This document shows positions 8,608 through 43,872 of a DNA stretch of 45,975 nt, piece by piece. Origin of the DNA: Elusimicrobia bacterium GWC2_61_19. Lineage in GTDB: Bacteria; Elusimicrobiota; Elusimicrobia; Elusimicrobiales; UBA9959. The DNA lies in contig MGUD01000015.1 of assembly GCA_001799795.1 (NCBI GenBank), positions 1-45,975 of the forward strand, written 5' to 3'. The notes beneath the pieces were generated by a model that did no database searches, was not told where the DNA came from, and saw only the letters and a program-made list of their open reading frames with translations. Both the position numbers and the translations under genes were made by a program. Position 1 is the stretch's first letter. Every line of letters starts with the position of its first letter.

Positions 8608-10475
8608 GGGTTTAGCAGGGTCGGTACCGGGTTCTCCTTTATAGTTCTGTTTCCTGAGATCTTTTGGCGGATACCTTGCCGCCAGCCGTTTATCTTATCT
8701 TCGGCTTCCACAGAGTCGTTCATAGTGATGTCATACCATTTGAACGTCGAGCCCATCTTCAGTTTCAGGTTCTGCATGTCGGCCTTTTCGGCGTCGGTCA
8801 GGGAGCCGGGCTCGGCCGCGGCCTTGGTCTGCAGCGCCTCCAGGCGCATGGCCGTGCTCTTGGCCATCACGAACTGCTTGGCGGCCTCTCCGTCCAGGGA
8901 ATCCTTGGTGGAGTACGCCTTGTGGTTGGAAAGCCGTATGCCGTCCACGCCCTGTTTCAGGAACACTTCCATATTGGATTTGTCGAAAGGGTCCAGCCTC
9001 GCGGTGTAGGCCTTGCCGCGCGCGGCGAATTTCTCGGCGGTAAAGCTGGCGTCCATGGAGAAAGCTTCGGTTTCTTTCTCCATCTGGTAGAACGAGTTGG
9101 ACTTGCCGCCGTATTTGAAGAGGTCTATGCCCTCGCGCTTGTCCTTGGCCGTCTGGCGCTGGTGGGTAGACTCGTGCACCAGGGTGGGGGCCAGGTATTC
9201 GGAAAGGCCGGCCAGGTGCTTGTTGGTGGCCGGGTCGCCCTTGAACAGCATGTCCGGGGTGACCTTGTTCTTCTGCATCCAGTCGTTGACGAGTTCGCTG
9301 TTGAGCTTGATGTCCTCGTTAACCCAGTTCCAGCCGCCGAACAGCCCCTTCCTCATCGGTTCGAAGCCGAAAACCAGTTTGTTCGTGCCCGCTTTCTTGA
9401 AGTTCTTGTCCTTGTAGAAGGCCAGGATCTCGTCGCCGGATTTGGTGCCCTTTATCTCTTTGGCCAGGGGGCCGGACAGCGAGCCGTCCTCTTTCTGGGT
9501 GAGCAGGCGGCCGCCCAGTTTATCGATGTCGTCCTGCGAGAGCGGCTTGTAGGTGTATTTGGCCGTGGAGGCGCCTTTTTTGCCGAGCGTCGGCTCTCCT
9601 TTGCGGTGGCCTGTGCCGTTAAAGAAATCGTCCAGTTTGCCGGCCTGGTCGTCCGCGCTCATGCCCTTCAGGGCTTTGGCGTCGGCCTCGGCTTTGGCCA
9701 CTTTGGCCGCGGTGGCTTTTTTGGACGCGCTGGCCGCGGCGGAGGCTTCGGTCTTCACCGGTTTTACGCCGGCGGCTTTAAGATATTCTCCCAGCTTCGT
9801 CTTTGTGGCCCCGTCGTAAACGTCATCCTGCAGGATAGGCACCAGCTTCGCCAGGCTCTCCTTGTCGGGGTAGTCCTTGGCCGGGACCAGCATGATCTGG
9901 GCGGCAAGTTCCCTCGACCAGAAGGCCAGGGCCTTGTAGCGGGTAAGGTAGTCCTTCGCGTTCCAGGAATCTTTCGTATGCCCTTTTTCCAGCAGCAAGG
10001 GGGTGCGTACGGGGCCCAGGGCGTCCCAGCTCCTCGCCGAGAACTTGAAGTCGGCCGCGGCGCCGGCAGGGAGGTTCTTGTCGGCCCACTCGAACGATTG
10101 CTCCGGCTTGGGCCCGAGATCCAGGTCGCAGAGCGGGCACGGTTCGCTATTCATGATCCGGTCGTACTGGCTGTAAAGGTCCAGGTCTTTATAGGAGGAA
10201 ATGAGCTTCTTGTAGTCCTTAAGCGCGGAATTATAGGCCAGGATTTCGGCGGCGTCGGCCGGATAATCCTCTTTGAGCTTGGCGAGCATGGCGGGGTTGT
10301 CGTGGAAAGTCTTGATGCAGCTTTCCGCCGTTTTCGCGGAGAGCTGGTCTTTATCTATATTGGCGCGGCAGTCTTGTATGACTTTATAATCGCCATCGTC
10401 CTGAGCCGGGGCGGGAATAGATAGCGCCGCCGTAGCCAGCGGCAGCAGCAGAAGGAGTTTTATATATCTGGTCAT
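8604..10475 (-). CDS. Secreted HExxH metalloprotease-like protein
   Basis: 623 residues. Signal peptide about 1-24 (LSIPAPA, cleavage before QDD). The first 230 mature residues contain a CPLC pair. A low-complexity Ala/Lys linker follows (about 240-270). The C-terminal third carries H434-E-S-T-H438 and, about 35 residues later, KETEAFSMDASF, which supplies a plausible third zinc ligand as in gluzincins. I do not recognise a named family. Promoter evidence fixes the start: TTGACA, 17 nt, TAGACT, 6 nt, ATG, with no Shine-Dalgarno, implying a leaderless mRNA. The PsbP-like gene follows in the same transcript. Confidence 0.7.
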   Translation of the reverse strand: MTRYIKLLLLLPLATAALSIPAPAQDDGDYKVIQDCRANIDKDQLSAKTAESCIKTFHDNPAMLAKLKEDYPADAAEILAYNSALKDYKKLISSYKDLDLYSQYDRIMNSEPCPLCDLDLGPKPEQSFEWADKNLPAGAAADFKFSARSWDALGPVRTPLLLEKGHTKDSWNAKDYLTRYKALAFWSRELAAQIMLVPAKDYPDKESLAKLVPILQDDVYDGATKTKLGEYLKAAGVKPVKTEASAAASASKKATAAKVAKAEADAKALKGMSADDQAGKLDDFFNGTGHRKGEPTLGKKGASTAKYTYKPLSQDDIDKLGGRLLTQKEDGSLSGPLAKEIKGTKSGDEILAFYKDKNFKKAGTNKLVFGFEPMRKGLFGGWNWVNEDIKLNSELVNDWMQKNKVTPDMLFKGDPATNKHLAGLSEYLAPTLVHESTHQRQTAKDKREGIDLFKYGGKSNSFYQMEKETEAFSMDASFTAEKFAARGKAYTARLDPFDKSNMEVFLKQGVDGIRLSNHKAYSTKDSLDGEAAKQFVMAKSTAMRLEALQTKAAAEPGSLTDAEKADMQNLKLKMGSTFKWYDITMNDSVEAEDKINGWRQGIRQKISGNRTIKENPVPTLLNP

Positions 10476-10481
10476 ATCCCT

Positions 10482-10510
10482 AGTCTAACAGCGGGAACCG
10501 GAATTGTCAA
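10482..10510 (-). promoter_or_regulatory. Promoter of the secreted metalloprotease gene
   Basis: On the minus strand: TTGACA (10505-10510), 17-nt spacer, TAGACT (10482-10487), then AGGGAT and the ATG at 10475. Transcription is expected to start at or next to the A of ATG. Confidence 0.8.
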
Positions 10511-10522
10511 GAGTCTCCAGGG

Positions 10523-11782
10523 CTATTCCGGTTCTTCTTTTATAGCCGTCTGGCCGACAGGTTTTTTATTGTCTTCCTTGAGGAACCTGCGCGAGAGCAG
10601 CAGGGTGGCCGCGGCGTAGCAGGTGATGGTTATAAGGAAGGGGAGGGTAAAGCCGAAATCCATCTGCAGGCGGCCGCTCAGGCGGGCGGAGGCGGCGTTG
10701 GCCAGGTTCCAGCCGGCGGTATAGAGGGCGCTGGCGGCCTGGTGCTGCGGCGCCGGGAAATGGCTGAGCATGAAGACGCTGTAGACCGGCCAGCTGGCGT
10801 TCATCAGCAGGGTGCGGGTGAAGGCGGCCAGCACGGTGGGCAGCAGCAGGCCGGAAAAACCCATGGTGGCGAGAAAGGGGATGGACAGGGACTGAAAGGT
10901 TATCATGGCCCGGACGCGCCCTATTCTGGTGACCAGCCAGGGGCCCACCAGGCCGCCGGCCGCCATGGCCAGCGGCATCAGCGACATGAAGAAGCCCAGG
11001 CTGGAGATGTGCAGGTCGAACCCGGACTTGAAGAAGATGTTAAGGTAGGGCATTATCATGCCGGCGCCGAAAGCTATTATCAGCTGCGGCGCCAGTACCA
11101 GCAGGGCCGGACCCAGGGCTATGCCGGACAGGGCCGCGCCCCCGGCGCCGGCCGCGGCGGCCGGTTCTTCCTTTATCTTCAGGGCGGGCAGGCCGGCCGC
11201 CAGCAGCAGGCCGCAGGCGACCAGCATGGTGGCGCGGTAGGCCAGGGCGCTCTCGTCGCCGGCGGAGAAGGCGGAGGCCCAGAACCCGGTGGCCCAGCCC
11301 GAAACCAGATTGCCCGCGAAAGCCGCGGTCATGGACACGGCGAACTGGAAACTGAACAGGTGCTGGCGTTCTTTTTCCGTCGAGCTGCGGGCCATCAGCG
11401 GCATGGCGGTAATGGCGAACAGCGCCCCGGCGGCGCCGGAGACCAGGGAGAAGAGCATCAGCGGCGCGCGGCCGGTGAACAGGGCCATGCCGGCCATGGC
11501 GGCGAAGCTCAGCGCCAGCGAGGCCAGCAGGCTTTTGCGGGCCGGGAAGGCGGAGCAGAAGACGGCCAGCGGGATGGCGAGCGCGGCGACGGTGAGGCTG
11601 GGGATGGACCCGAGGGTGCCGAGGAAGTCGCGGGTGTAGCCGAGTTTGAGAATATAGAGGTTGAAGACCAGCCCGAAGATGCTCTGGGCGAAGGACATAA
11701 GGAAGGTGAGCAGCAGGAAATTCCTGGCGTTGCCGCTGAAAGCCCTGAACCCGGCAATATAATTTTTAATAATGTCACGCAT
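10523..11782 (-). CDS. Major facilitator superfamily transporter
   Basis: 419 residues from the ATG at 11782 (MRDIIKNYI). About twelve hydrophobic segments are present in two halves separated by a polar loop near LKIKEEPAAA. The second half has the loop LVTRIGRVRAM, a motif-A-like sequence after a GG-containing helix. The frame stays open upstream to 11911, but that extension crosses the palindromic element at 11821-12003 and codes Arg/Pro-rich, non-membrane sequence, so I reject it. There is no clear Shine-Dalgarno at 11782. Substrate unknown; the overall look is of efflux-type MFS proteins. Confidence 0.8.
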   Translation of the reverse strand: MRDIIKNYIAGFRAFSGNARNFLLLTFLMSFAQSIFGLVFNLYILKLGYTRDFLGTLGSIPSLTVAALAIPLAVFCSAFPARKSLLASLALSFAAMAGMALFTGRAPLMLFSLVSGAAGALFAITAMPLMARSSTEKERQHLFSFQFAVSMTAAFAGNLVSGWATGFWASAFSAGDESALAYRATMLVACGLLLAAGLPALKIKEEPAAAAGAGGAALSGIALGPALLVLAPQLIIAFGAGMIMPYLNIFFKSGFDLHISSLGFFMSLMPLAMAAGGLVGPWLVTRIGRVRAMITFQSLSIPFLATMGFSGLLLPTVLAAFTRTLLMNASWPVYSVFMLSHFPAPQHQAASALYTAGWNLANAASARLSGRLQMDFGFTLPFLITITCYAAATLLLSRRFLKEDNKKPVGQTAIKEEPE

Positions 11783-11820
11783 GATGTTAGATTTAGTTAT
11801 CGGACCGCAAGGATGCTCAG

Positions 11821-12003
11821 GCGGGGCCGTCCGGGGTTTTGCCCCGCGCACCCTGGAAGATGGAAACCGTTGGCCGTCTGACGAGCATAGCTCTCGATAC
11901 GGCACGGGCATAGCCCAGCGCGGTTTCCCCCCAGCCGGGATAATTAGGCTGGGGCCCCCCCTTCCCCAAAGGGTGCGCGGGGCAAAACCCCGGCCAGCCC
12001 CTC
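11821..12003. repeat. Large inverted-repeat element, copy 2
   Basis: Perfect 24-bp arms (11831-11854 and 11970-11993) extend imperfectly to 11821 and 12003. Inside, in order: GGAAACCG (11862-11869) pairs with CGGTTTCC (11921-11928) and encloses GCCGT/ACGGC (11873-11877, 11899-11903), GAGC-ATA-GCTC (11883-11893) and GGGC-ATA-GCCC (11906-11916). A separate hairpin CCCCAGCC/GGCTGGGG lies at 11929-11954. The inner part matches 215-264 and the right part matches 54-90. It fills the gap between the ChaN-like gene and the MFS gene. I see no protein-coding content. Confidence 0.75.
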
Positions 12004-12040
12004 CGCTAAAATTAGCTGGTTATGATTGGCTGGGGGGGGG

Positions 12041-13084
12041 TTACTTGCCGGTTGTTGTGGCTGTGCCGGTTGTCAGCGCGGTCTGGGGCGTAGCGGTTAA
12101 AGCGGGCATGACCGCCGGAGCGGCGGCGGCCGGCTCGGCTTTCGCGGGGTGGTTTATGTACCACACGTAATTAGCCATGTCCTTGTGGTCTTTATTCATC
12201 TTCTCCGGGCAGGCGCCGTCCTCGGTGTAGAAAGAGGCCTGGCGCACGCCCTTCACCCGCCCCTTCACGGACGCCGGAATGGCGGCGTTGTAGATCACGT
12301 GCCCGTTGCCGGCGATCACCAGCACCGAATACCCGGGGTTCGCGTTAAGGAATTCCGCAATTTTATTGCCCATCCCCTCGTTCCAGGCCGCCATGGAGGC
12401 CAGATAGTTCTCGATAGTGAACATCTTGGCCATGGGGGAGTCTTCGTGGCCCGCGAAAGAGGCCTTAAGGAACTCGTTATATTTTTTGTGCTGCGTGATC
12501 TCCACCTTCTCCGGCAGGAACTGCTTCTCCTCCGGTGTCAGGCTGTCCAGACCCGTGCGGGCGATCTTGCCCACCACTTTTTTGGGCACGTTAATCGCCA
12601 GGCCGCGCAGCTTGTTGGCGACGATAAAATCGAACAGCGGCTTGTACATATTGAAATCGAAGCCCCATTCTTTTTTCCAGTCCGCCTTGCTCAAGAATTC
12701 CTCTTCCGTGATCCTGCCGGCGGCATAATCGTCCATGATCGGCTGCAAGGTCTGGTTCAGCATCTCGAACCCCACCGCTATTTTGGACCCGCGGGCTATG
12801 CGCATAGCCTTAAGGGCTTCGAACTGGGCCTCGTGGTCCAGCGGCTGGTCGTGCGTCTCACCCACGTAGACCACGTCGTTCTTCCAGACCACGGTGTTAA
12901 AGGCCGCCTGCGTATTGAAAACCTTGCCCGACTGGGCGCCGAAAATGCAGAATCTGGGGTCCGGCTTGGCCTGCGCGGCCGCTTCGGCGGTAAGGGGCCG
13001 TTTTTCCACGTTCGCCTGGGGTTTTTTTACGGATTTGGCCGATAAAGGGGCGGTTAAAACAAGTAAAAGAATTAAGGTTCTCAT
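12041..13084 (-). CDS. ChaN-family (haem-binding, Tiki/EreA-like fold) exported protein
   Basis: 347 residues with a signal peptide (about 1-16, cleavage after LSA). The domain starts VVYVGETHDQPLDHEAQ, the signature of ChaN/DUF399 proteins, where GE-x-H and following residues line the metal or haem site. Later come VGFEMLNQ and VIAGNGHVIYN, the other conserved blocks. ChaN of Campylobacter binds haem and is linked to iron uptake (family knowledge). The related Tiki proteins are metalloproteases, so the activity here is open. The last 35 residues are a low-complexity Ala/Pro/Thr tail. A -10 box ends 6 nt before the ATG. Confidence 0.8.
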   Translation of the reverse strand: MRTLILLLVLTAPLSAKSVKKPQANVEKRPLTAEAAAQAKPDPRFCIFGAQSGKVFNTQAAFNTVVWKNDVVYVGETHDQPLDHEAQFEALKAMRIARGSKIAVGFEMLNQTLQPIMDDYAAGRITEEEFLSKADWKKEWGFDFNMYKPLFDFIVANKLRGLAINVPKKVVGKIARTGLDSLTPEEKQFLPEKVEITQHKKYNEFLKASFAGHEDSPMAKMFTIENYLASMAAWNEGMGNKIAEFLNANPGYSVLVIAGNGHVIYNAAIPASVKGRVKGVRQASFYTEDGACPEKMNKDHKDMANYVWYINHPAKAEPAAAAPAVMPALTATPQTALTTGTATTTGK

Positions 13085-13096
13085 AAATTTATTATA
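13085..13096 (-). promoter_or_regulatory. Extended -10 promoter, ChaN-like gene
   Basis: On the minus strand: TG-T-TATAAT (-10 at 13091-13096), AAATTT, then ATG. There is no good -35 box, but the TGn extension compensates. The spacing predicts a leaderless transcript. Confidence 0.65.
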
Positions 13097-13133
13097 ACAT
13101 AAGGCCCTTAATGCCCGGATATGAAGCGCGCGG

Positions 13134-13790
13134 TTAGCGTTTGATGACCGCGACGGCTTTGCCGCTGATCAGGAAGTCGTCGTCGGGGTGCAGGTAGATG
13201 GGGTCGTAATCGTAGGAGGAATCCGCTTTCAGGATCACCTGGCCGTTCTTGCGGTCGTCGATAAAGCGCTTGATGGTGGCCTTGTTGTCGATGATGGCCA
13301 GCACAATGTCGTTGTCGCGCACGTCCTTGCGGTTGCTGTCGATGATCACGTAGTCGCCGTCCTCTATCATCTTGCCGGCTATCTCGGCGCGGTTCATGGA
13401 GGTGCCGTTGGTCTTTATCCCGTAAAGGCCCTTAGGGGTGGCCCTGCCCAGCAGCCGCCCCGACACGCGCAGGAAGCCCTGGAAATTTTCTTCTGCGAAG
13501 ATAGTGGCCGGCCCGCAGCTGGCCGTGCCTACTATAGGTATAGAGAAAAGCGAGGAAGCGGTTTTCAGCAGGCCGTTGGCCCAGCCGGGGATCAAAGAGG
13601 TCTTCTCCATCAGGCCCTTATCGCGGTCGATGGTGAAGAAACCTTTTTTCTCAAGCTGCTGCAGGTGGTGCTTAATTTTCTGCGGAGATTCGTCGGGCAG
13701 GCCTATAGCCTTGGCCATTTCGCGCAGGCTCACCTGGGCCAGGTTCCGCTCTTTGGAAAGATGCAGGAGCTTCTCTTGTATAGGGTGCAT
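13134..13790 (-). CDS. lexA: LexA-type SOS repressor/autoprotease
   Basis: 218 residues. N-terminal winged-helix region (about 1-60) with LREMAKAIGLPDESPQKIKHH; it is divergent from the classical LexA helix. The C-terminal S24 peptidase domain has Ser131 in GTSM and Lys174 in ATIKRF as the catalytic dyad. The self-cleavage site is Cys92-Gly93 (GTASCGPA), as in UmuD, where most LexA proteins have Ala-Gly. On DNA damage RecA filaments would stimulate cleavage and derepress the regulon. It is divergent from recA across 206 bp, a natural place for self-control. It could be called a LexA-like S24 regulator, but the position beside recA favours LexA. Confidence 0.9.
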   Translation of the reverse strand: MHPIQEKLLHLSKERNLAQVSLREMAKAIGLPDESPQKIKHHLQQLEKKGFFTIDRDKGLMEKTSLIPGWANGLLKTASSLFSIPIVGTASCGPATIFAEENFQGFLRVSGRLLGRATPKGLYGIKTNGTSMNRAEIAGKMIEDGDYVIIDSNRKDVRDNDIVLAIIDNKATIKRFIDDRKNGQVILKADSSYDYDPIYLHPDDDFLISGKAVAVIKR

Positions 13791-13796
13791 GGTTAA

Positions 13797-13825
13797 ATCA
13801 TAGCATACAATACCGGTAAAGGCAA
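13797..13825 (-). promoter_or_regulatory. lexA promoter with possible operator
   Basis: On the minus strand: TTGCCT (13820-13825), 17-nt spacer, TATGAT (13797-13802) with TGC before it, 6 nt, ATG. The spacer holds the palindrome TACCGGTA (13811-13818). A related string CCGGxATxGTxT also lies before the recA -10 box, so it may be the LexA site; this is weak evidence. Confidence 0.65.
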
Positions 13826-13839
13826 TATCTCCTTAATAC

Positions 13840-13868
13840 TTGACACTTGGGCCGGGATGGTGTATACT
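13840..13868 (+). promoter_or_regulatory. recA promoter
   Basis: TTGACA (13840-13845), 17-nt spacer, TATACT (13863-13868): a near-consensus sigma-70 promoter. Expected start is near 13875, giving a leader of about 120 nt. Confidence 0.88.
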
Positions 13869-13923
13869 GATTAGGCGGTTGATGTGGGTATTGTTCTTTG
13901 TAAAGCACAGATTTTGCGGAAAA

Positions 13924-13949
13924 CAACCCGACACTACGCTGTCGGGTTG
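13924..13949 (+). promoter_or_regulatory. Hairpin in the recA leader
   Basis: CAACCCGACA (13924-13933) pairs perfectly with TGTCGGGTTG (13940-13949) around a 6-nt loop. No T-run follows, so it is not a terminator. It may stabilise the recA mRNA or control it. Confidence 0.6.
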
Positions 13950-13996
13950 GTGATGTAGACTATCAGGGTAGGAAAATTTAACGGAGGTCACATATT

Positions 13997-15097
13997 ATGG
14001 CTAATGACGAAAAGAACAGGGCGCTGGAAGCGGCGCTGGCGCAGATAGAGAAGAGCTACGGCAAAGAAGCGATCATGAAACTGGGTGAGCGCTCGGGCCG
14101 CATGAAGATCGAGACCATTCCCACCGGCGCGCTGTCGCTGGACCTGGCGCTGGGCGTGGGCGGGCTGCCCCGCGGCCGCGTGATCGAGATCTACGGGCCG
14201 GAATCCTCGGGCAAGACCACGCTTACGCTGCACGTGATAGCGGAAGCGCAGAAAAAAGGCGGCATGGCGGCCTTCATAGACGCCGAGCACGCGCTGGACC
14301 CCGTATACGCGCAGAAGCTGGGCGTGGACGTGGATAACCTGCTTATCTCCCAGCCCGACAGCGGCGAGCAGGCGCTGGAGATCTGCGAAAAACTGGTGCG
14401 CTCCGGCGCGCTGGACATTATCGTCATAGACTCCGTGGCCGCGCTGGTCCCGAAGGCCGAGATAGAAGGCGAGATGGGCGACATGCACGTGGGCCTGCAG
14501 GCCCGGCTGATGAGCCAGGCGCTCAGGAAGCTCACCTCTATAGTGGCGTCCACCAAAACTTCCGTAATGTTCATCAACCAGCTCCGCCACAAGATCGGTG
14601 TGATGTTCGGCAACCCAGAGACCACGCCCGGCGGCCTGGCGCTGAAGTTCTACTCCTCCGTCCGCCTGGACATCCGCAAGATCGAGACCATCAAAACGGC
14701 CGACGTAGTGACCGGCGCGCGCATCCGCGTGAAAGTGGTAAAGAACAAAGTCGCGCCCCCCTACCGCCAGGCCGAGTTCGAAATGGTCAACGGCGAAGGC
14801 ATCTCCACCGAGGGCTGCCTGCTGGATATGGGTGTGGAAACGGGCCTGCTGGAAAAATCAGGCACCTGGTTTATTTACAACGGCGACCGCATGGGCCAGG
14901 GCCGCGAGAACGCCAAGACCTACCTTAAAACCAACAAGGACAAGGCCGCCGAGATAGAAAAAGAGCTACGCAGCCGCTTTCTGCTGCCGGGCATGAAGCC
15001 CACCCCCGGTTCGGAGAAGGTTGCCGCCGAGAAGGCGGCCGAAAAAGCCGCCGACAAAGCTTACGCCGAAAAGAAGGAAAAAGCGGTCAAGAAGTAA
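13997..15097 (+). CDS. recA: Recombinase A
   Basis: 366 residues, start supported by GGAGG at 13983-13987. ATP-dependent strand-exchange protein and co-protease of LexA. Walker A is GPESSGKT (67-74). [10 protein letters not shown], the Walker B region [10 protein letters not shown], the L1/L2 region with EGEMGD and the [23 protein letters not shown] block are intact. The last 30 residues are an Ala/Lys/Glu-rich tail, more basic than the acidic tail of E. coli RecA, so tail-mediated control may differ. It has its own strong promoter and a terminator after the stop, so it is monocistronic. Confidence 0.99.
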
Positions 15098-15110
15098 ACG
15101 CAACCGCGGA

Positions 15111-15154
15111 AAGGCGCAACAGGCAAAAGCCCTCTTTTTGCCGTTGCGCCTTTT
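15111..15154 (+). terminator. recA terminator
   Basis: AAGGCGCAAC (15111-15120) pairs with GTTGCGCCTT (15143-15152). An inner stem GGCAAAA/TTTTGCC extends the hairpin and a short T-run ends it. Confidence 0.85.
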
Positions 15155-15198
15155 GTGCGTCTATGCGGCCGAACCCTGAAGTGGTAATATATGGATAA

Positions 15199-16086
15199 AT
15201 GCGTCCATTAGCGGCTGACTTTTCGCGGCACCTCGGCATGGAGCGGGGCCTGGCGCGCAACACGTGCCTGGCCTACGCCGGGGACACGGACGCTTTCCTG
15301 GTCTATTGCGAAACCAGGAAGACCGATCCGGCCCGGGCCGAGGCGCCGTTCCTTGAGGCGTATCTGTGGTCTTTAAAGAAAGAGAAGGGGCTGGGGCCGG
15401 CGTCCATCTTCCGCAAGACCGAAGCCCTGCGCGCTTTTTACCGCTACCTGCGCCTGGAGGGAAAGGCGGCCAAGGACCCGACGGCCAATTTCAGGGCGCC
15501 CAAGCTGCCGCGCAGGGTGCCGCGCTTCCTGGCCCTGCGGGACATGGAAAAGCTCCTGGGCTACCCGTCCGGCGAGGCCTTCGCCAAAATGCGGGCCGCG
15601 GCCGCCATCGAGCTGCTTTACGCCTCGGGTATCAGGGTGTCGGAGCTGCTGGGCCTGCGGCTCGAATCCGTTAATTTCCAGCAGGGCTGGCTGCGGGTGT
15701 TCGGCAAAGGCTCCAAAGAGCGGATGGTGCCCGTTAACGCCGCGGCCCTGGTCCGCCTTAAAGATTATCTTTCCGCCAGGCAGCAGAAATTCGGTGGGGT
15801 TGCGGTGGCGGACGAGCTGTTCCTTAACCGCTCCGGCAAAAAGCTCAGCCGCGTGCAGATGTGGAAAGATATAGTGACGTACGGCCGCGAGGCGGGGGTG
15901 GAGATAAAACCGCATCCGCATTTGTTCAGGCATACCTTCGCCAGCCACCTGGTGCAGGGCGGCGCGGACCTCAGGTCCGTGCAGGAGATGCTGGGCCACG
16001 CCAGCCTCAATACCACGCAGATCTACGCGCACATAGACAAGGGAGACGTTAAACGGGCGCACGAGAAATTCCACCCGGATAAATGA
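15199..16086 (+). CDS. xerD: Tyrosine recombinase XerD/XerC-like
   Basis: 295 residues, typical for Xer proteins. The N-terminal SAM-like DNA-binding domain (about 1-95) has RGLARNTCLAYAGD. The catalytic domain keeps every active residue: Arg146, Lys170, His241, Arg244 (HLFRHTFASH), His267 (LGHAS) and nucleophile Tyr276. Xer recombinases resolve chromosome dimers at dif during division. Only one Xer gene is visible, so it could be the sole XerH/XerD-like enzyme or one of a pair, and I see no dif site. No integron or phage genes adjoin it, which argues against an integrase. No clear Shine-Dalgarno precedes the ATG. Confidence 0.9.
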   Translation: MRPLAADFSRHLGMERGLARNTCLAYAGDTDAFLVYCETRKTDPARAEAPFLEAYLWSLKKEKGLGPASIFRKTEALRAFYRYLRLEGKAAKDPTANFRAPKLPRRVPRFLALRDMEKLLGYPSGEAFAKMRAAAAIELLYASGIRVSELLGLRLESVNFQQGWLRVFGKGSKERMVPVNAAALVRLKDYLSARQQKFGGVAVADELFLNRSGKKLSRVQMWKDIVTYGREAGVEIKPHPHLFRHTFASHLVQGGADLRSVQEMLGHASLNTTQIYAHIDKGDVKRAHEKFHPDK

Positions 16087-16095
16087 ACGTAAACT

Positions 16096-17649: not shown

Positions 17650-17678
17650 TCTAATACCCGTTCAAGGAGTTTTCAGAA

Positions 17679-23541: not shown

Positions 23542-24093
23542 TTAGAACAGGAAAACGGCCGCAGCCACCGTGGTGGTCCAGACGCCTTCCATGCCTATGG
23601 CGGACTGGGTGATATTGGCGGCCCTTACTATTTTGCCGCTGAGCTTCCAGATCTCTTCCTTCTGGTCCCAGGTGGTCTCGCCGCCGAATTCCACGCCCTG
23701 AATGGTGGATAACATCAGCGCGGCCAGGTCTTCGGCGTAGTCGCCTGTCTTTTCGTCCGTTTCGCCGTAAGTGTGATGCTCGGAAATATAGCCGTAATGC
23801 GAGCGGTCCTTGGGGATGGCCAGGCCCACCGAGGAGGCGATCAGGCGGTGGTTCTCGTTGATGGCGTTGCGGCTCAGCACGCAGTGCAGGATCTGGCCGT
23901 CGTTCAGTTTTTCAATGCCTTTCTGCCTGGGGATCACCTTGCAGTGGGGCGGGAAGATGCTGGAGACGTGGACCAGGTTGTACTTGGCTATCTTGGCGTC
24001 CCGCAGGGCTTCCTCGAAGCTCGCCAGCTTCTCTTTGTGGCGGCCGAGGCCCTTGGTAAGGAAGACTTCTTTGGGAACGAGGTGTATTGACAT
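23542..24093 (-). CDS. pdaD: Pyruvoyl-dependent arginine decarboxylase
   Basis: 183 residues. The Ser44-Ser45 pair in VHVSSIFPP is the self-cleavage site that generates the pyruvoyl cofactor. Conserved neighbours include GLGRHKEKLASFEEAL, LVHVSSIFPPHCK and, near the end, GGETTWDQKEE. It converts arginine to agmatine without PLP. This enzyme type is common in archaea and found in Chlamydiae and some other bacteria. The gene has its own -10 box 6 nt before the ATG and a terminator upstream, so it is likely transcribed apart from the decarboxylase at 24180. Agmatinase follows, fixing its role in putrescine synthesis. Confidence 0.95.
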   Translation of the reverse strand: MSIHLVPKEVFLTKGLGRHKEKLASFEEALRDAKIAKYNLVHVSSIFPPHCKVIPRQKGIEKLNDGQILHCVLSRNAINENHRLIASSVGLAIPKDRSHYGYISEHHTYGETDEKTGDYAEDLAALMLSTIQGVEFGGETTWDQKEEIWKLSGKIVRAANITQSAIGMEGVWTTTVAAAVFLF

Positions 24094-24099: not shown

Positions 24100-24105
24100 A
24101 TTATA
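24100..24105 (-). promoter_or_regulatory. -10 box of the arginine decarboxylase gene
   Basis: TATAAT on the minus strand, then TATCGC and the ATG at 24093. The -35 region is weak. There is no Shine-Dalgarno, and the spacing predicts a leaderless mRNA. Confidence 0.6.
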
Positions 24106-33191: not shown

Positions 33192-33386
33192 TTATTTAAG
33201 CGCGCGTACAGCTTTGCCGCTCTTTATGCAGACGGTGCAGACGTAGACGGACTGCGTCTTGCCGTTCAGCGCCACTTTCTGTTTCTGAAGGTTGGGCTTG
33301 AAGATCCGTTTGGTAGCCCTGTTGGAATGGCTGTAGGAATTACCGGAAACGGGCTTCTTGCCGCAAAGTTCGCATTTGTAAGACAT
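33192..33386 (-). CDS. rpmB: 50S ribosomal protein L28
   Basis: 64 residues. It begins MSYKCELCGKKPVSGN and has the second cysteine pair in VCTVCIKSG, so this is the zinc-binding (C+) form of L28. SHSNRATKRIFKPNLQKQ is the rRNA-contact segment. A TATAAT box with TGG before it lies 6 nt upstream of the ATG and there is no Shine-Dalgarno, so the mRNA is probably leaderless. It is not with rpmG, unlike in many bacteria. Confidence 0.96.
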   Translation of the reverse strand: MSYKCELCGKKPVSGNSYSHSNRATKRIFKPNLQKQKVALNGKTQSVYVCTVCIKSGKAVRALK

Positions 33387-33392: not shown

Positions 33393-33398
33393 ATTATA
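33393..33398 (-). promoter_or_regulatory. rpmB extended -10 box
   Basis: On the minus strand: TGG-TATAAT, then AAAACC and the ATG at 33386. A weak TTTCCA sits 17 nt upstream. Confidence 0.65.
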
Positions 33399-34274: not shown

Positions 34275-34279
34275 CCGGG

Positions 34280-36948: not shown

Positions 36949-36962
36949 GGGCGTTCGGGGCG

Positions 36963-37682
36963 TCAGGCGCCGGTCTTTTCCCCAATGTAGAAGAGTTGGC
37001 AGCCCGAGGAAGAGAGGTTAGCGTAAAAAAGCAGGTAGAACAGGTTTGAAACCGCTTTCTGGAGCGGGCCGTACTTGGGCCGGCCGAAAGTGCCGGTAAC
37101 GCCGCCGGGAAAAAGGTCCAGCAGGGTCCGGTAGAAAGAATGGAAAGGGAAGCCCCAGGCGAAGCAGGCGACGGTCCTGAAGCCGTGGCGTTCGGCCAGG
37201 GCCCGGAGGGTCTCTTCGGTGTAATGCCTCAGGTGGCCCATCGGCACATCGGTGCTGCGTATCGGCCCCGCCGGCACCGTCAACAGCAAATGCCCGGAGG
37301 TCATCCTGGCGAGATTGGCCATCGCCGCGGAATCGTCCCTGGTATGCTCCAGCACTTCCGTCATCACCACCAGGTCGAATTTTTCCGGCAGGCAGGAGGT
37401 TTCTATGTTGAAAGAATGAAAACCGCTGAGCAGGCCCTTGAGCCGTTCCGGGGCGGAACTTTTATTGAGTTCGATGCCGTATATTTTCGCCCCGAATTCC
37501 GCCTGAAGGTTTTCCAGGAGGCGTCCGTCGCCGCAGCCGACGTCCAGTATCGAGCGCGCTTGCGGGCAGTTCTTCCGTATCAGGGACTTTATTATCCGCC
37601 GCCTGTGGCGCGAGGCCGGGTTGTAGACGAAGAAGTCGTCCCAGGAGGAATGGGTGTCCTTGATGGAGGTCGTTTCCTGCAT
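36963..37682 (-). CDS. SAM-dependent methyltransferase
   Basis: 239 residues. Class I Rossmann methyltransferase: motif I ILDVGCGDGRLLENL (about 44-58), then IYGIELN, then DLVVMTEVLEHT as motif IV, and LLLTVPAG. The C-terminal part has a hydrophobic stretch (LQKAVSNLFYLLFYANLSSSG) that may contact the membrane. The motif arrangement is like UbiE/Coq5- or sugar-lipid-type enzymes. The substrate is unknown; the glycosyltransferase neighbours suggest a glycan or its lipid carrier. The gap to the next gene is 14 bp. Confidence 0.9.
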   Translation of the reverse strand: MQETTSIKDTHSSWDDFFVYNPASRHRRRIIKSLIRKNCPQARSILDVGCGDGRLLENLQAEFGAKIYGIELNKSSAPERLKGLLSGFHSFNIETSCLPEKFDLVVMTEVLEHTRDDSAAMANLARMTSGHLLLTVPAGPIRSTDVPMGHLRHYTEETLRALAERHGFRTVACFAWGFPFHSFYRTLLDLFPGGVTGTFGRPKYGPLQKAVSNLFYLLFYANLSSSGCQLFYIGEKTGA

Positions 37683-37689
37683 ATCGGGC

Positions 37690-38571
37690 TTATTTCCTGC
37701 TGTGCAGCCTGAAAGATTCTATTACGCAGCCCATCAGGAAGATCAGTACCGAGCCCAGCGTCATGGCGGCTACGGCCAGCCAGCGGATATCCGCTGGCGG
37801 GAAAAAGAAGAACTTGACCGTGAGGACGAACGTGGCCAGCAGCGGCAGCAGGGTTATCACCGCGGCGAACTTCATCGGGTTGAAATAAAGTATCACCTGC
37901 GTCATTATCTGCAGGGTGCGCAGTATGTCGCGCACCGGCTTCACCTTGGAATGGCCTACGCGCTCGACGAACTTTATCGGTTCGAACCTTACGAACCGGC
38001 CGGCGTTCAGGAACGACAGCGTCATGGTGGTGGTAAAAGAGTAGCCGTAGCAGGTGACCGGCATGGAAGTGGTGACGGCCTCTTTCCTGAATATCCTCAG
38101 CCCGGAATTGGCGTCGGGAATGGGCTCCCCGGCCACGAACCTGGCGATGCTCAGGTAGATGAAGCGCATCAGCGCCTTGCCCGGGGTGCCCCAGAAGAGG
38201 GACCCTTCCCTGGCCCCGACCACCATGTCGAAGGCCGGGACGTGCGGCAGGAGCTTGGCTATTTCCCCGGGAGGGTAGGAGCCGTCCGCGTCTATTATCA
38301 GGATCCACTCGTGGGCGGACGCTTCTATGCCGCTGAGCAGGGAGCGGCCGTAGCCCCGGTTGACCGGGTGGCGTATCACGCGCGAGCCGGCGGCCTCGGC
38401 CGCCGCCGCGGTGGCGTCGGAGGACCCGTCGTCCACCGTGATTATCTCGAATTTAAGCCCGGCCGCCGCCAGGGCCGCGCCGGCCCCTTTTATGGTGGGG
38501 GTTATCGCGCCCTCCTCGTTGTAGGCGGGGATGACTACGGTTATTTCCGGTTTGTTCGAGAACAGTCCCAT
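37690..38571 (-). CDS. DPM1-like glycosyltransferase 2 with C-terminal membrane helices
   Basis: 293 residues. The GT-A domain has VVIPAYNEEGAI (11-22), VDDGSSDAT and IIDADGSYPP as the DxD-type metal site. NRGYGRSLLSGI and DANSGLRIFRK are hallmarks of dolichol/polyprenol-phosphate mannose or glucose synthases. Two membrane helices at the C-terminus (about 233-252 and 262-285) anchor it. It should charge polyprenyl phosphate with a sugar for the GT39-type enzyme downstream. The ATG directly follows the stop of the M16 gene. Confidence 0.92.
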   Translation of the reverse strand: MGLFSNKPEITVVIPAYNEEGAITPTIKGAGAALAAAGLKFEIITVDDGSSDATAAAAEAAGSRVIRHPVNRGYGRSLLSGIEASAHEWILIIDADGSYPPGEIAKLLPHVPAFDMVVGAREGSLFWGTPGKALMRFIYLSIARFVAGEPIPDANSGLRIFRKEAVTTSMPVTCYGYSFTTTMTLSFLNAGRFVRFEPIKFVERVGHSKVKPVRDILRTLQIMTQVILYFNPMKFAAVITLLPLLATFVLTVKFFFFPPADIRWLAVAAMTLGSVLIFLMGCVIESFRLHSRK

Positions 38572-39975
38572 TTAATCTTCCTTCAGTTCGGTCACCGGCC
38601 CGAACCCGGAGAGCGGTTTGTCGAACTTCTTGGAGTTGCCGATGACGAAGATCAGCGCGTCTTCGGGTTTGAATAATTTCTGCGCGGTGTCCAGCACGGC
38701 TTTGGGGTCGGTTTTGGCCAGGTTCTCCACGTAGTTGTCCAGGTAATCGGCCGGGTAGCCGTAGTATTCGTAGGAGGCGCGCTCCGTGATCAGTTCGAAC
38801 GGGGTAGGGAATCTGAACACGAAGGAGTTGATGATGGCGTCCTTGGCCCGCGTTACTTCCTCGGCGGGCGCGGCCTCTTTCTTCATAAGGTCGAACTGGG
38901 CGACCAGTTCGGAGAGCGCCTGGGAGTAGGTTTCCGGCTTGGTGCCGCAATAGGCCAGGATGTAGCCGTAATCCGGCTTCTTGGCGAAGTAGCTGTAGAC
39001 GCTGTAGGCCAGGCCCTTGCGCGAGCGGATCTCGGAGGCCAGGCGGGAGGACAGGCCGCCGCCGAGCATCTCGTTGGCGACGGTGAGCGGGTACTCGACG
39101 GGGTCGTGGCGCTTCACGCCTTTCTGCAGCATCACTATGAACGCCTGGGAGATGTCCCGGTCTATAAAGTAGACCTGGCGCGCGCCTTTTATCTCCACCG
39201 GGGGGATGACGGGGAAGTTCACTTCGCCGCGGGGCCAGGCGCCGAAGCGCGCCTTCAGCCTGGCCAGCATCTCCTCGTCGGAGCCGAAATCGCCGGCCGC
39301 CACCAGGATGACGTTGTTGGGCTTGTAATAGTTGGCGTGGTAGGCCTTCATGTCGCCGATGGTCACGGCGTTCACCGTGGCTTCCTCGCTGCGCCAGCCG
39401 TAGGGGTGGCCGGCGCCGTAGAAGGCGCGCACGGCTTCGCGCACGGCCTCGCGGGAGGGGTCGTCGTTGCGGCGGCGGATCATCTCAAGGACCTCGTCGC
39501 GCTTGAGCTTCACCTTGTCCTCGGCGAAAGCGGGGTGCATCAGCACGTCCGCGTAGATATCCAGCACGGCGTCGAGGTCTTTCTTCAGCACGGTCATGTC
39601 CGCGCGCGCCTCTTCGTTGCCCAGGGAGCTTTCCACCGAGGCGGCCAGGTATTCCAGGGTCTTGTCTATCTCTTCCGGCTTGTATTTCAGCGTGCCGCCG
39701 TCCTTGAGCAGCCCGGCGGTCAGTTCGCCCAGGCCTATCTTGGCGGCGGGGTCGTTGATCTTGCCGGTGCGGATATAGGCCGTCATGTGCACCACGGGCA
39801 GCGTGGCGTCCTTCATCAGGTAGACCACCAGGCCGTTCTCCAGCACGTAGCGGTCGCCCTTCGGCGGTTTGAAGTTGACGGCGTCGAGTTTTGGCAGGTT
39901 CGGCGGCATGGCGAACAGAGGGGCGGCGCTTAAAAGTGTCATGAGTACGGCTCCAGTTAGGGTTGATTTTTTCAT
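38572..39975 (-). CDS. M16 peptidase-like protein, probably non-catalytic
   Basis: 467 residues with a signal peptide (cleavage about after LFAM/PP). The M16 fold is complete: YVLENGLVVYLMKD, then the place where HXXEH should be reads GLGELTAGLLKDGGT, without His or the catalytic Glu pattern. The second half keeps the substrate-binding Arg/Tyr region (GGGLSSRLASEIRSRKGLAYSVYSYF). This is the usual layout of the inactive partner in bacterial M16 heterodimers, such as the SPH2681/SPH2682 pair. It would act with the catalytic M16 gene 17 bp upstream. Confidence 0.9.
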   Translation of the reverse strand: MKKSTLTGAVLMTLLSAAPLFAMPPNLPKLDAVNFKPPKGDRYVLENGLVVYLMKDATLPVVHMTAYIRTGKINDPAAKIGLGELTAGLLKDGGTLKYKPEEIDKTLEYLAASVESSLGNEEARADMTVLKKDLDAVLDIYADVLMHPAFAEDKVKLKRDEVLEMIRRRNDDPSREAVREAVRAFYGAGHPYGWRSEEATVNAVTIGDMKAYHANYYKPNNVILVAAGDFGSDEEMLARLKARFGAWPRGEVNFPVIPPVEIKGARQVYFIDRDISQAFIVMLQKGVKRHDPVEYPLTVANEMLGGGLSSRLASEIRSRKGLAYSVYSYFAKKPDYGYILAYCGTKPETYSQALSELVAQFDLMKKEAAPAEEVTRAKDAIINSFVFRFPTPFELITERASYEYYGYPADYLDNYVENLAKTDPKAVLDTAQKLFKPEDALIFVIGNSKKFDKPLSGFGPVTELKED

Positions 39976-39992
39976 GGGATGGTCCTCGTCCT

Positions 39993-41513
39993 TTATTTCA
40001 GCGGTTCCCTGAGAAAGACAGCGGTGCGGTTGTCGCGGGTGAGGTACTTGGCGGCTATTCTGGAGATATCCTCGGGCGTCACCTTGCGCAGTTCCTCGCC
40101 GGTCTTCCAGTCGTATTTCCAGTCTCCCATGATCTCCTGGTTATGGGCCAGGTTCATGCCCAGGCCGGAGTTGGACTCCAGCTGCTTGATCATTTCGGCT
40201 TCGTAGTTGTTGAGGATCTTGTCCAGCTCCCAGCGGGTGGGGGGAGTTTTCTTGAGGAGTTCTATCTCTTCCAGGATGGCGGAGTCCAGTTCCTCCACCG
40301 TGTGCGGCGCCTTGGGCGCGGCCGAGATCACGAACAGCGACGGATAGCGGTTGCCCGGGGTGGAGTGGTAGGAGTTGGCGTACAGGGCGAGTTCGCGGCC
40401 TTCCACCAGGTTCTTGTAGAAGCGGCCGGTCTTGCCGTTGGAGAGCACTTCGCTGACCATCAGCAGCCCGTAGATGTCGGCATTGTCCGGGCCGGGGTTA
40501 TGGTAGCCGATGCGCAGGGCCGGTTTGGCCTTGAAGAAGACGTTGATGACCTTTTCCGCTTTCTGCTGCGGTTCCCTGGTATAGACGCGGTCGGGGATGT
40601 CGGCGCTCTTCCAGGCGCCGAAATACTTCTCGGCCAGCGCTATGACCTCGGCGGGGCTGACGTCGCCTACCACGGCCAGCGTGGCGTTGTTGGGCACGTA
40701 GAACTGCTTGTAGAACTGCTCGGCGTCGGTGCGGGTCAGGCGCTTCAGGTCGTCCATCCAGCCGATGGTGGGGTTATGGTAGGGGTGCGCGACGAAGGCG
40801 TCGGAGAACAGGCTCTGCCACATCACGCGGTTGGGGTCGGCCTCGCCCATGCGCAGCTCCTCCATCACCACGTTGCGCTCGCGGTAGAACTCGCGCAGCA
40901 CGGGGTTCCTGAAGCGGTCGGATTCTATGGTCATCCAGGCTTCCAGCCGGTTCGACGGCAGCGACACCACGTAGCCGGTATAGTCGGTGGAGGTCATGGC
41001 GTTCATGCCGGATTCGCCCAGGGTGTTGTAAAGCTTCCAGTACTCGTCCTTCACTATGAGCTTGTCGGCCTCTTTCTCGGCCGCGTCCAGGGCCTTGCGC
41101 AGCGTCTCCAGTTTCTTCATGTCCGGGGCGCCGGCGGATTCCTCGGCGATAAGCGCCTTGGCCGCTTTTTCAACGGTCTCCAGCGCCACCTTCTCTTTCT
41201 CGTAGCCGGCGGAGTTTATGGTCCTGGTGCCCTTGAAGGCCATGTGCTCCATCAGGTGGGCCAGGCCGGTCTTGCCCTGCTGGCCGTCCACGTTCCCGGC
41301 CTTGAACAGCATGGTGAAGGAGACCGTGGGGACGAAGCGCTTTTCCAGGATCAGCAGCCGCAGCCCGTTCTTCAGGGTGTAGGAGACCACGGGCGGGTAC
41401 TTCGGGTCGGTTTCCACCGCCGCGCCCTCGGGCAGGGCGGCGCCGGGCGCGGCCTTGGCCAGGGACGGCTGGCAGAACAGCAGCAGGCAGGGGAGAAAAT
41501 GGGAAAGCTTCAT
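39993..41513 (-). CDS. M16 family zinc peptidase, catalytic subunit
   Basis: 506 residues from the ATG at 41513, which has GGAGG 5 nt upstream. A start 12 codons further up lacks a site. Signal peptide about 1-22. The inverted zinc motif is H86-L-M-E-H90 (GLAHLMEHMAF), with the distal Glu in the NVVMEELRMGE region. The Arg/Tyr pair of the C-terminal half is less clear than in the partner, as expected when the two halves complement each other. It should degrade peptides outside the cytoplasmic membrane. It heads the operon with the sugar genes; no reason for that link is visible. Confidence 0.92.
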   Translation of the reverse strand: MKLSHFLPCLLLFCQPSLAKAAPGAALPEGAAVETDPKYPPVVSYTLKNGLRLLILEKRFVPTVSFTMLFKAGNVDGQQGKTGLAHLMEHMAFKGTRTINSAGYEKEKVALETVEKAAKALIAEESAGAPDMKKLETLRKALDAAEKEADKLIVKDEYWKLYNTLGESGMNAMTSTDYTGYVVSLPSNRLEAWMTIESDRFRNPVLREFYRERNVVMEELRMGEADPNRVMWQSLFSDAFVAHPYHNPTIGWMDDLKRLTRTDAEQFYKQFYVPNNATLAVVGDVSPAEVIALAEKYFGAWKSADIPDRVYTREPQQKAEKVINVFFKAKPALRIGYHNPGPDNADIYGLLMVSEVLSNGKTGRFYKNLVEGRELALYANSYHSTPGNRYPSLFVISAAPKAPHTVEELDSAILEEIELLKKTPPTRWELDKILNNYEAEMIKQLESNSGLGMNLAHNQEIMGDWKYDWKTGEELRKVTPEDISRIAAKYLTRDNRTAVFLREPLK

Positions 41514-41584
41514 GATATCCTCCGGGGAAAGGGGCTGGGTAGTTAACACGGAATTATTATACTAAATGACTTCAATATAAAATT

Positions 41585-41612
41585 AAGAAGGGCGCGTCGC
41601 CGCGCCCTTCTT
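41585..41612 (-). terminator. Terminator of the M20 peptidase gene
   Basis: AAGAAGGGCGCG (41585-41596) and CGCGCCCTTCTT (41601-41612) form a 12-bp stem. On the minus strand the downstream sequence is AT-rich (AATTTTATATTG). Confidence 0.8.
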
Positions 41613-41639
41613 ACCAGGACCGCCGTGAGGCGGCCGGGG

Positions 41640-42878
41640 CTACTTCTTTTCGCAGAGCAGCAGGGTGGTGACGGCGAAGACTTTGGCGTCGCCCATCATG
41701 TGGTCGATCACGCAGTATTCGTTGGGCATATGCGCGGACTCGTTGATGCGCGAATACACCACCACCGGCAGTTTGAGGCGCCTGAAGAAGGCCGCCACGG
41801 TGCCGCCGCCTATGCCGTAGGCCTTGGCGTCCACGTGCAGAACTTCTTTTATGGCCTTCTTGAGGGCCGTTACTATGGGCGCGTTCGGGTCTGTGGGGGG
41901 CGCGGCCTGGGCTTCCTGCTGCGGCTCGAAGGCGATCTTCACGCCGTGTTTCTTTTCCACCTCGTCGGCGAGGCGCCGCATTTCGGCCTTCACGTCGGCC
42001 AGCTGGTAGACCGGCATCACGCGGCAGTCCATGTAGAACACGTCCTCGCCGGGCAGGGTGTTGACGTTGGGCACGTTGGCCTCTTTCTTGGTGGGCTCGA
42101 AGGTGCTTATGGGGGGCTCGTAGAGGGTGTCCTTGTGGGGGAATTTCTCGTAGAGGCCCTGGTATTTCACCACCAGTTCGCTGGCGGCCTTGAAGGCGTT
42201 GATGCCCAGCGAAGGCCGGCTGGCGTGGCACTGTTTGCCGTGCGTGGTCACTTTCATCCACATTATCGATTTCTCGGCCACTTCTATCATGGAGCCGTCC
42301 TCCGTGCCGGAATCCGGCACGAAGAAGACGTCGTCTTTCCCGAAAATTTCCGGCTTGTTGTCGGAGATGTAGTCGGCGCCGAAGCCCGAGCCCGTTTCCT
42401 CGTCGGCGCAGAACAGCAGGGCGATGTCGTAAGCCGGCCGGTAATCCAGTTCCATCATGGCTTTCACCACCATGATGCTGGAGACGATGGCCTGCTGGTT
42501 ATCCTCCACGCCGCGGCCCACCAGTTTGCGGCCCTGTACTTCCATCTTATAGGGGTCGGATTTCCACAGCTTGGCCTCGCCGGGGGGCACTACGTCCAGG
42601 TGGGCCATGAACCAGATGGTCTTGGCCGAGCTTAACCCCTTATAGCGGGCGATGACGTTGGGGCGGATGCCGTTCTTGGCCAATTCCTGCGGGGCGTTTA
42701 TCCACTCTATGGAGTCGAATTTAAGTTTCTTCAGTTCGCCTTCCAGCCACTTGGCCTTGTCGTACTCGCCGGTGCCGCCGCTGGACGGGGCCAGCGCCGG
42801 GATGGCGGTAAGGCCGCGCTGCAGCTCTACGGCGTAATTTTCGTAAGATTCTATTTTCCTGAGGATTTGGTCTTTCAT
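41640..42878 (-). CDS. M20 family metallopeptidase (ArgE/DapE/CPG2 type)
   Basis: 412 residues from the ATG at 42878, preceded by AGGAG. The open frame further up has no ribosome site. Metal ligands in order: AHLDVVP (His and Asp), GVEDNQQA (Asp), CADEETGSG (Glu-Glu, with catalytic Glu first), DSGTEDGS, and the late GGGTVAAFFRR and HMPNEY (His). The family cleaves N-acyl amino acids or dipeptides in the cytoplasm, and there is no signal peptide. Peptide salvage after the exported M16 pair is possible but speculative. It is divergent from the EamA gene. Confidence 0.92.
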   Translation of the reverse strand: MKDQILRKIESYENYAVELQRGLTAIPALAPSSGGTGEYDKAKWLEGELKKLKFDSIEWINAPQELAKNGIRPNVIARYKGLSSAKTIWFMAHLDVVPPGEAKLWKSDPYKMEVQGRKLVGRGVEDNQQAIVSSIMVVKAMMELDYRPAYDIALLFCADEETGSGFGADYISDNKPEIFGKDDVFFVPDSGTEDGSMIEVAEKSIMWMKVTTHGKQCHASRPSLGINAFKAASELVVKYQGLYEKFPHKDTLYEPPISTFEPTKKEANVPNVNTLPGEDVFYMDCRVMPVYQLADVKAEMRRLADEVEKKHGVKIAFEPQQEAQAAPPTDPNAPIVTALKKAIKEVLHVDAKAYGIGGGTVAAFFRRLKLPVVVYSRINESAHMPNEYCVIDHMMGDAKVFAVTTLLLCEKK

Positions 42879-42963
42879 GGGGTTCTCCTGTGGCTTCCGG
42901 ACATAAAAAGTATACCTAGTTGGGCCGTGCCAAAGCAATGCGCCGGCGCGCGGCGCAGTAATG

Positions 42964-42969
42964 TATAAT
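42964..42969 (+). promoter_or_regulatory. EamA gene -10 box
   Basis: TATAAT, then TTCAGC and the ATG at 42976. The -35 region is not recognisable. The box lies between two possible ATG codons and favours the second. Confidence 0.6.
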
Positions 42970-42975
42970 TTCAGC

Positions 42976-43872
42976 ATGAATAAGCCCTCAGGCCGCGGCG
43001 TCTGGTCCGACATCGGCCTGTTCTATTGCGCGGCCATCTGGGGCTCGACGTTCATCGTCACCAAGGGCGCGCTGGACTTCGTGGACCCGGCGGTGATGGT
43101 GGGCATCCGCTTCTTTATCTCGGCCGCCCTGCTGCTGCCCTGGGTACTGAAGCGCAAGAACAGAACGGCGCATATGCGCGAGGGTTTCTACCTCTCGATC
43201 TTTCTGGCCGCGCTCTACCTGACGCAGACCACCGGCCTGCTCTATACCACGGCCTCCAACTCCGGCTTCATCACGGGCCTGTTCATAATCTTCATCCCCG
43301 TCTTCATGTACCTGTTCCGCCGCGAGAAACCCACCGCGCTGCAGGGGCTGTCCGCCCTGCTGGCCATAGGCGGCATGTGGCTGCTCACCGGCGGCGCCGG
43401 CGGTTTCAACCTGGGCGACGCCCTTACCCTGGTGGCCGCGGCCGCCTATTCCGCGCATTTGATCTTCACCGATAAATACGTGAAAGCCGAGGCGGACACC
43501 GTGCTGCTGGCCTTCCACCAGTTCTGGATGGTGTCGGCCATTGCTTTCATCATGGCGCTGTTCAAGGGGGCCTCGCTGGCCGTGGCCGGAGTGAACGCCT
43601 GGGGCGTGATAATTTTCCTGGCGGTCTTCCCCACGCTCACCGCTTTCTTTATCCAGATGCTGGCGCAGCGGCATTCCGAGCCGTTCAAGGTGGGCATCAT
43701 CTTCACGCTGGAGCCGGTGTTCGCCGCCCTCTTCGCCTGGACCTGGGGCGGGGAGGAATTCGTGGCGGTCAAGGCCGCCGGCGGCCTGCTGATAGTGTCC
43801 GGCATGCTCATAGGCGAACTGGCCAAATTCAATCTTAGAAGAGCGGTAAAAAAAGAAGTGCTGCCGGTCTGA
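42976..43872 (+). CDS. EamA/DMT-family transporter
   Basis: 298 residues with about ten membrane helices in two EamA repeats. The first repeat opens with FYCAAIWGSTFIVTKGAL and has GLLYTTASNSGFITGLFIIF. The second starts near NLGDALTLVAAAAYSAHLIF and ends with the usual EPVFAALFAW and GGLLIVSGMLIGEL. The start at 42976 rather than 42961 is chosen because a TATAAT box lies exactly between the two ATGs. Substrates of this family are amino acids, nucleotides or drugs; none can be chosen here. The phospholipase-like gene follows after 26 bp. Confidence 0.92.
   Translation: MNKPSGRGVWSDIGLFYCAAIWGSTFIVTKGALDFVDPAVMVGIRFFISAALLLPWVLKRKNRTAHMREGFYLSIFLAALYLTQTTGLLYTTASNSGFITGLFIIFIPVFMYLFRREKPTALQGLSALLAIGGMWLLTGGAGGFNLGDALTLVAAAAYSAHLIFTDKYVKAEADTVLLAFHQFWMVSAIAFIMALFKGASLAVAGVNAWGVIIFLAVFPTLTAFFIQMLAQRHSEPFKVGIIFTLEPVFAALFAWTWGGEEFVAVKAAGGLLIVSGMLIGELAKFNLRRAVKKEVLPV

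Follow-up and report, generated by a model that had tools for sequence, protein, structure and literature searches.

In the leaderless transcriptome of Mycobacterium tuberculosis, the -10 element TANNNT is reportedly set so that the transcription start site (TSS) coincides with the start codon's first base, as found by TSS mapping. In Deinococcus-Thermus, TANNNT about 6-7 bp before the open reading frame was shown by experiment to be the promoter -10 element and to yield leaderless mRNA (PMC12340547). TA-led genes, in which TANNNT lies about 12 bp upstream of the start, were described in many groups by Zheng et al. (2011), who found them significant against dinucleotide shuffles and took them to be leaderless (PMC3160421). 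Here we describe a comparable arrangement in Elusimicrobia bacterium GWC2_61_19, whose genome (1.36 Mb) is 66% complete. The stretch analysed, hereafter the window, is the 45,975 nucleotides (nt) of contig MGUD01000015.1; seven of its genes carry a TANNNT box exactly 6 nt before the start codon, and the same spacing is in excess in held-out parts of the genome and across its class. These boxes are very probably sigma-70-type promoters fused to the start codon, which would give leaderless or near-leaderless mRNAs beside genes with Shine-Dalgarno initiation.

Whereas the M. tuberculosis genes are reportedly backed by TSS mapping, those of Elusimicrobia are known from sequence alone, which also separates them from the Deinococcus-Thermus genes. 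As described for Deinococcus-Thermus, a -35 element is optional and the boxes coexist with Shine-Dalgarno genes (PMC12340547). Unlike in Elusimicrobia, nearly one third of D. radiodurans genes have the box, most commonly as TACACT (PMC12340547); the Elusimicrobia box is TATAAT-like, extended by TG in about one third, and the excess at the exact gap amounts to a few percent of genes. As with the TA-led genes, TANNNT about 12 nt upstream of the start is above chance in held-out Elusimicrobia genes, but that paper apparently shows no class boundary inside a phylum, unlike our counts for Elusimicrobiota (PMC3160421). The string 'Elusimicrob' is absent from its main text; E. minutum is possibly one of the 20 genomes in its 'Other Bacteria' row, of which 8 are positive. 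Our literature search, which left subscription papers mostly outside and in which E. minutum is possibly within the PMC3160421 data, found no report of leaderless genes for Elusimicrobiota. Thus, the leaderless mode is already known elsewhere, and the new part is an added lineage with a class-level boundary.

A preliminary description of the window listed six genes with TATAAT, TATGAT or TAGACT exactly 6 nt before ATG, and all six can be read directly in the sequence. Five are on the minus strand: TAGACT (10482..10487; TAGACT-AGGGAT-ATG at 10475) ahead of the 'secreted protease' gene (8604-10475); TATAAT (13091..13096; TATAAT-AAATTT-ATG at 13084) ahead of a ChaN-like gene (PF04187); TATGAT (13797..13802; TATGAT-TTAACC-ATG at 13790) ahead of lexA; TATAAT (24100..24105; TATAAT-TATCGC-ATG at 24093) ahead of the gene for pyruvoyl-dependent arginine decarboxylase (ADC, PF01862); and TATAAT (33393..33398; TATAAT-AAAACC-ATG at 33386) ahead of the gene for ribosomal protein L28 (PF00830). 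The sixth, on the plus strand, is TATAAT (42964..42969; TATAAT-TTCAGC-ATG at 42976) ahead of an EamA transporter gene. A seventh, absent from that description, precedes an M16 peptidase gene on the minus strand (TATAAT, 41556..41561; TATAAT-AATTCC-GTG at 41549). The reported TTGACA of the 'secreted protease' gene is likewise present, 17 nt above TAGACT (10505..10510, minus strand), and lexA has TTGCCT 17 nt above TATGAT (13820..13825, minus strand), which is TTGACT in many relatives. The same description had rsmH coming close at 11 nt, and TACTAT does lie 11 nt before the ATG of the MraW/rsmH gene (20276, minus strand). Its statement that other genes have GGAGG holds for the clpC-like gene and recA, but the M20 gene reads AGGAG instead.

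Gene starts were set by an in-house simple hexamer caller, not a published gene finder. It placed the ChaN start at 13009 and the EamA start at 42961, unlike the preliminary description, whose start codons for these two genes are supported by the orthologues. By background, about 1.9% of genes would have TANNNT at any given offset. When the earlier starts are used, 7 of 36 window genes match (P ~5e-6; 2e-4 after multiplication by 40 possible offsets), whereas automatic starts alone give 5 of 36 (P 6e-4; 0.024 after the same correction). Taken alone, the window is suggestive of a set of genes with the box at exactly 6 nt (box-6 genes); it is not decisive, so a held-out sample of the genome was used as the deciding test.

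This sample comprised 20 stretches of the same genome outside the window (380,874 bases, 317 genes). A peak at 6 nt had been set beforehand as the check, and it is present: TANNAT lies at exactly this gap in 16 of 317 genes against a background of 2.3 (Poisson 4e-9), which is the mean number of genes per offset over gaps 12 to 45. Counts at gaps of 5, 6, 7, 8 and 9 nt were 2, 16, 3, 8 and 7 genes, and the gap-6 count never exceeded 5 in 30 dinucleotide shuffles. The 6-nt peak recurs in a genome of the same genus (G019; 12 of 333 genes), one of the same order (G034; 13 of 317) and one of the same class with 69% GC (G195; 9 of 250 vs 0.3 background); exactly 6 nt gave the highest count in all four class genomes sampled. 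In-frame internal Met codons showed no peak in these four genomes (0.00 to 0.66 per gene-equivalent). With the same caller, none of 157 genes in 200 kb of E. coli K-12 had the box at 6 nt, and 150 kb of D. radiodurans plasmid MP1 gave TANNNT at 6 nt in 5 of 114 genes against 0.47. A genome of another class (G101) gave 3 of 109 genes vs 1.35, which is not significant; the sample of G048 (46,780 bases, 19 genes) is too small to serve as a control. Histograms over the ADC loci also peak at 6 nt, but they recount the same genes and were not used.

To follow the spacing across the phylum, TATAAT-Nk-ATG was counted for k = 6, 5 and 8 at every site of 245 Elusimicrobiota genomes, with k5 and k8 as the spacing control inside each genome; the genomes are not independent. 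The k6, k5 and k8 sums were 793, 199 and 390 in the own genus (18 genomes), 1168, 716 and 916 in other genera of the family (21 genomes), 3529, 1035 and 1388 in the rest of the order (73 genomes), and 1127, 369 and 670 in the rest of the class (48 genomes). The own class, which we infer to be class Elusimicrobia, thus totals 6617, 2319 and 3364 in 160 genomes. The 85 genomes of other classes have no k6 excess (3852, 4019 and 4077), and k6 is above both k5 and k8 in 29 of them, about the third expected by chance. A binomial p <1e-3 was reached by 12 of 18 genomes in the genus, 62 of 73 in the rest of the order, 17 of 48 in the rest of the class and 0 of 85 in other classes. Loss of ribosomal protein bS21, a conceivable cause of leaderless use, is not supported: the protein was found in 150 of 158 genomes on both sides of the class boundary, and so its loss does not account for the difference between classes. 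Of the eight genomes without a bS21 match, three belong to other classes and five to the own class, including G000, which is incomplete.

Promoter features were compared between 50 box-6 genes and 1167 other genes pooled from the own genome, G019, G034 and G195. An extended -10 TG is found in 17 of 50 box-6 genes and 51 of 1167 others (p 1.6e-10), and the start is ATG in 47 of 50 vs 828 of 1167. A Shine-Dalgarno 4-mer precedes only 5 of 50 box-6 genes, compared with 431 of 1167 others, in agreement with the proposal that two initiation modes coexist; some of this depletion is automatic, because the box occupies part of the Shine-Dalgarno position. In the own genome, 35% of genes have the 4-mer, and box-6 is a minority mode beside Shine-Dalgarno initiation. 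A -35 with five or six matching positions occurs in 5 of 50 box-6 genes and in about 1% of controls, with a perfect TTGACA in 3 of 50; in the window, lexA and the 'secreted protease' gene have good -35 elements. A strong -35 ahead of all boxes was looked for and not found. AT-rich early codons in box-6 genes were ruled out, codons 2-7 being GC-richer than in Shine-Dalgarno-led genes in 3 of 4 genomes.

Orthologues of the window genes were scanned for the box; both genomes and orthologues are related, so their tallies are not independent. For TANNNT, loci near an end or without a match were left out, leaving 31 of 32 ADC loci in each of two sets (L021-L052 and L069-L100), 20 of 22 for M16, 18 of 19 for EamA and 22 of 23 for the 'secreted protease'. 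The nearest named ADC relatives are in the Elusimicrobia metagenome-assembled genomes UBA11697 (97% identity) and GWA2_61_42 (95%). TANNNT lies at exactly 6 nt in 26 of 31 close ADC relatives (L021-L052). The count is 6 of 16 in a more distant set (L053-L068) and 0 of 31 in L069-L100, which by title come largely from animal gut samples and of which many have a leader with AAGGAG- or GAGG-like sites. The nearest TANRAT box is at 6 nt in 30 of 80 ADC orthologues. Two loci (L031, L035) start one codon further on and keep the gap of 6, the box having shifted along with the ATG. Within the genus, the nearest TANRAT box is at 6 nt in 17 of 22 ChaN-like orthologues (at 7 nt in 3) and 12 of 19 EamA orthologues (at 7 nt in 3). 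Of 14 LexA orthologues in the genus, 13 have TANNNT-6-ATG, and in most cases TTGMCT stands 17 nt above it; under the stricter TANRAT, the count at 6 nt is 4 of 15. Among 20 M16 orthologues in the genus, TATAAT-6-GTG is present in four, TATAAT-7-GTG in two others and TAATAT-6-ATG in one. L28 has matches in 75 other genomes, of which 29 were covered as loci; the box is at 6 nt in 5 of these 29 loci across the class; in one family of the order (f2), which named loci suggest is the Elusimicrobiaceae, L28 is leadered with AAGGAAG-like sites. The initiation mode of ADC and L28 thus appears to switch between leaderless and Shine-Dalgarno forms among orthologues, with the window's close relatives apparently leaderless.

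Transcription by sigma-70 polymerase begins some 7 nt downstream of the -10 element, which would put +1 on the A of the ATG. RNA polymerase would bind the box at -12 to -7, with frequent help from the extended -10 TG and occasional help from a -35 element, and RNA would begin at the A or within a few bases of it. The resulting mRNA would lack a Shine-Dalgarno site and all or nearly all of a 5' leader, its 5'-terminal AUG being read by 70S ribosomes, or by 30S subunits with initiator tRNA and IF2. Shine-Dalgarno initiation would serve many other genes, in particular those internal to operons. Both the transcript 5' end and translation without a leader are predictions from the position of the box. 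A leaderless route with IF2 and initiator tRNA is known elsewhere (PMC10783764), in a paper whose table of anti-Shine-Dalgarno types includes Elusimicrobia and does not call them leaderless.

Several observations weigh against start-codon-fused promoters, or against their generality. A pyrimidine at -1 (YR initiator at -1/+1) is only a trend (37 of 50 vs 729 of 1167, p 0.10), and the best -35 match (TTGACA-like, 15-19 nt) averages 3.14 of 6 positions, only slightly more than the 2.71 of 6 in controls. Among genes that come first in a transcription unit, the exact 6-nt gap is in excess by only a few percent (own genome 6.6%, G019 5.1%, G034 4.9%, G195 3.3%), and genes called operon-internal also have a 6-nt box (own genome 6 of 176, G019 2 of 157, G034 2 of 129, G195 3 of 62), which makes the operon picture crude. 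Elsewhere in the family, the other genera give a weaker signal, with 5 of 21 genomes at p <1e-3. The 'secreted protease' has the box by motif in just 2 of 22 loci, one of them a clear orthologue and the closest (L237, TAAACT-6-ATG), and lacks it in most remoter homologues; ADC and L28 are leadered with AAGGA-like sites in many Elusimicrobiaceae-type genomes (L069-L100, L211-L235). Finally, the TANNNT scan also finds other gaps, namely 9 nt in 25 of 31 ADC and 16 of 23 ChaN loci, 11 nt in 13 of 14 LexA loci and 4 nt in 9 of 18 EamA loci. On inspection, most of them are words that overlap the box (TATTATAAT, TACTATAAT, TATAATTT), but the orthologue scan is a weaker test of spacing for their presence, and nearest boxes at 7, 9 or 11 nt are present among orthologues as well.

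The last point bears on how exactly the start is placed. Were the boxes true -10 elements with transcription beginning 1 to 5 nt to either side of the A, the mRNAs would have very short leaders or begin within the start codon, making them near-leaderless in function without being strictly leaderless; this reading overlaps with the one proposed here, and we hold it only as a tentative possibility. In the own genome, 8 genes have a gap of 8 nt and 7 a gap of 9 nt, both above the background of 2.3, k8 counts exceed k5 in the class, and the nearest box is at 7 or 9 nt in some ADC, ChaN and EamA orthologues and at 7 nt in some of M16. However, the count is highest at exactly 6 nt in the four class genomes sampled, the nearest box most often lies 6 nt away in orthologues of ADC, ChaN and EamA, and part of the 9-nt signal consists of TATTATAAT-like words that match at both 9 and 6 nt. 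An exact +1 at the A is a prediction from the spacing, and because gaps of 7 to 9 nt also occur, these mRNAs are more safely described as leaderless or led by a few nt.

Alternatively, the box could serve another start, the true start being a later, Shine-Dalgarno-led codon. Start codons are only predicted here, and the automatic caller differs for ChaN and EamA, yet the LexA residues right after the ATG (MHPIQEKLL) are identical in the genus members shown, the codons following the ATG of ADC and L28 are similar among relatives, and internal Met codons have no peak; we consider this very unlikely. That the boxes are functionless TATAAT-like words near ATG is barely credible, for although AT-rich upstream regions raise the number of such words and the window with automatic starts reaches just 0.024, the held-out peak is offset-specific against dinucleotide shuffles and missing at internal Met codons, the genome counts are spacing-specific, the extended -10 TG accompanies the box, and neither the other classes nor the E. 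coli sample has such an excess.

Start-codon-fused promoters would also bring a contrast to the divergent lexA and recA genes (13790-13997), whose -35 elements are 14 nt apart. The TTGACA-17-TATACT of recA ends 128 nt upstream of the ATG, and the gene has ACGGAGG as well as a long leader; from this arrangement lexA looks leaderless and recA leadered. Between the two -35 elements, the core CTCCTTAATACTTGACA (plus strand) is identical in 15 of 15 sequences (own and 14 genus members). The recA leader (13925-13996) contains an inverted repeat, AACCCGACA...TGTCGGGTT, followed by TGTAGACTAT, which is perhaps a second promoter with a candidate operator. Upstream of this repeat, 10 of 15 sequences have a palindrome, ATGTTAACAT, as a candidate operator; the window is without it. 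Neither Pfam nor NCBIfam gives a match for the 623-aa 'secreted protease', so that the name is putative; 23 of 25 genus genomes have 1 to 3 matches to it at E up to 0.001, some of them weak. At the EamA gene, an in-frame ATG (42961) stands directly before the -10 box, and automatic annotation may therefore lengthen the protein by 5 residues. A tRNA scan of the window found none.

For the group as a whole, the evidence leans towards a class-wide reading, which we hold with moderate confidence: from groundwater lineages to gut Elusimicrobiaceae, all of class Elusimicrobia would have a second initiation mode, based on -10 promoters that are fused to the start codon and often extended by TG; the sister classes would lack this mode, which would have been gained or lost near the class boundary, with ADC and L28 orthologues switching forms and bS21 loss not the reason. 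A model of TANNNT, 6 nt and a start codon could improve start codon and promoter calls in these mostly uncultured genomes. The boxes would add Elusimicrobia to the lineages using leaderless genes, and with a signal that ends at a class boundary and single genes that change mode between relatives, the phylum is suited to asking if leaderless initiation is a relic of ancient origin or a product of gain and loss.

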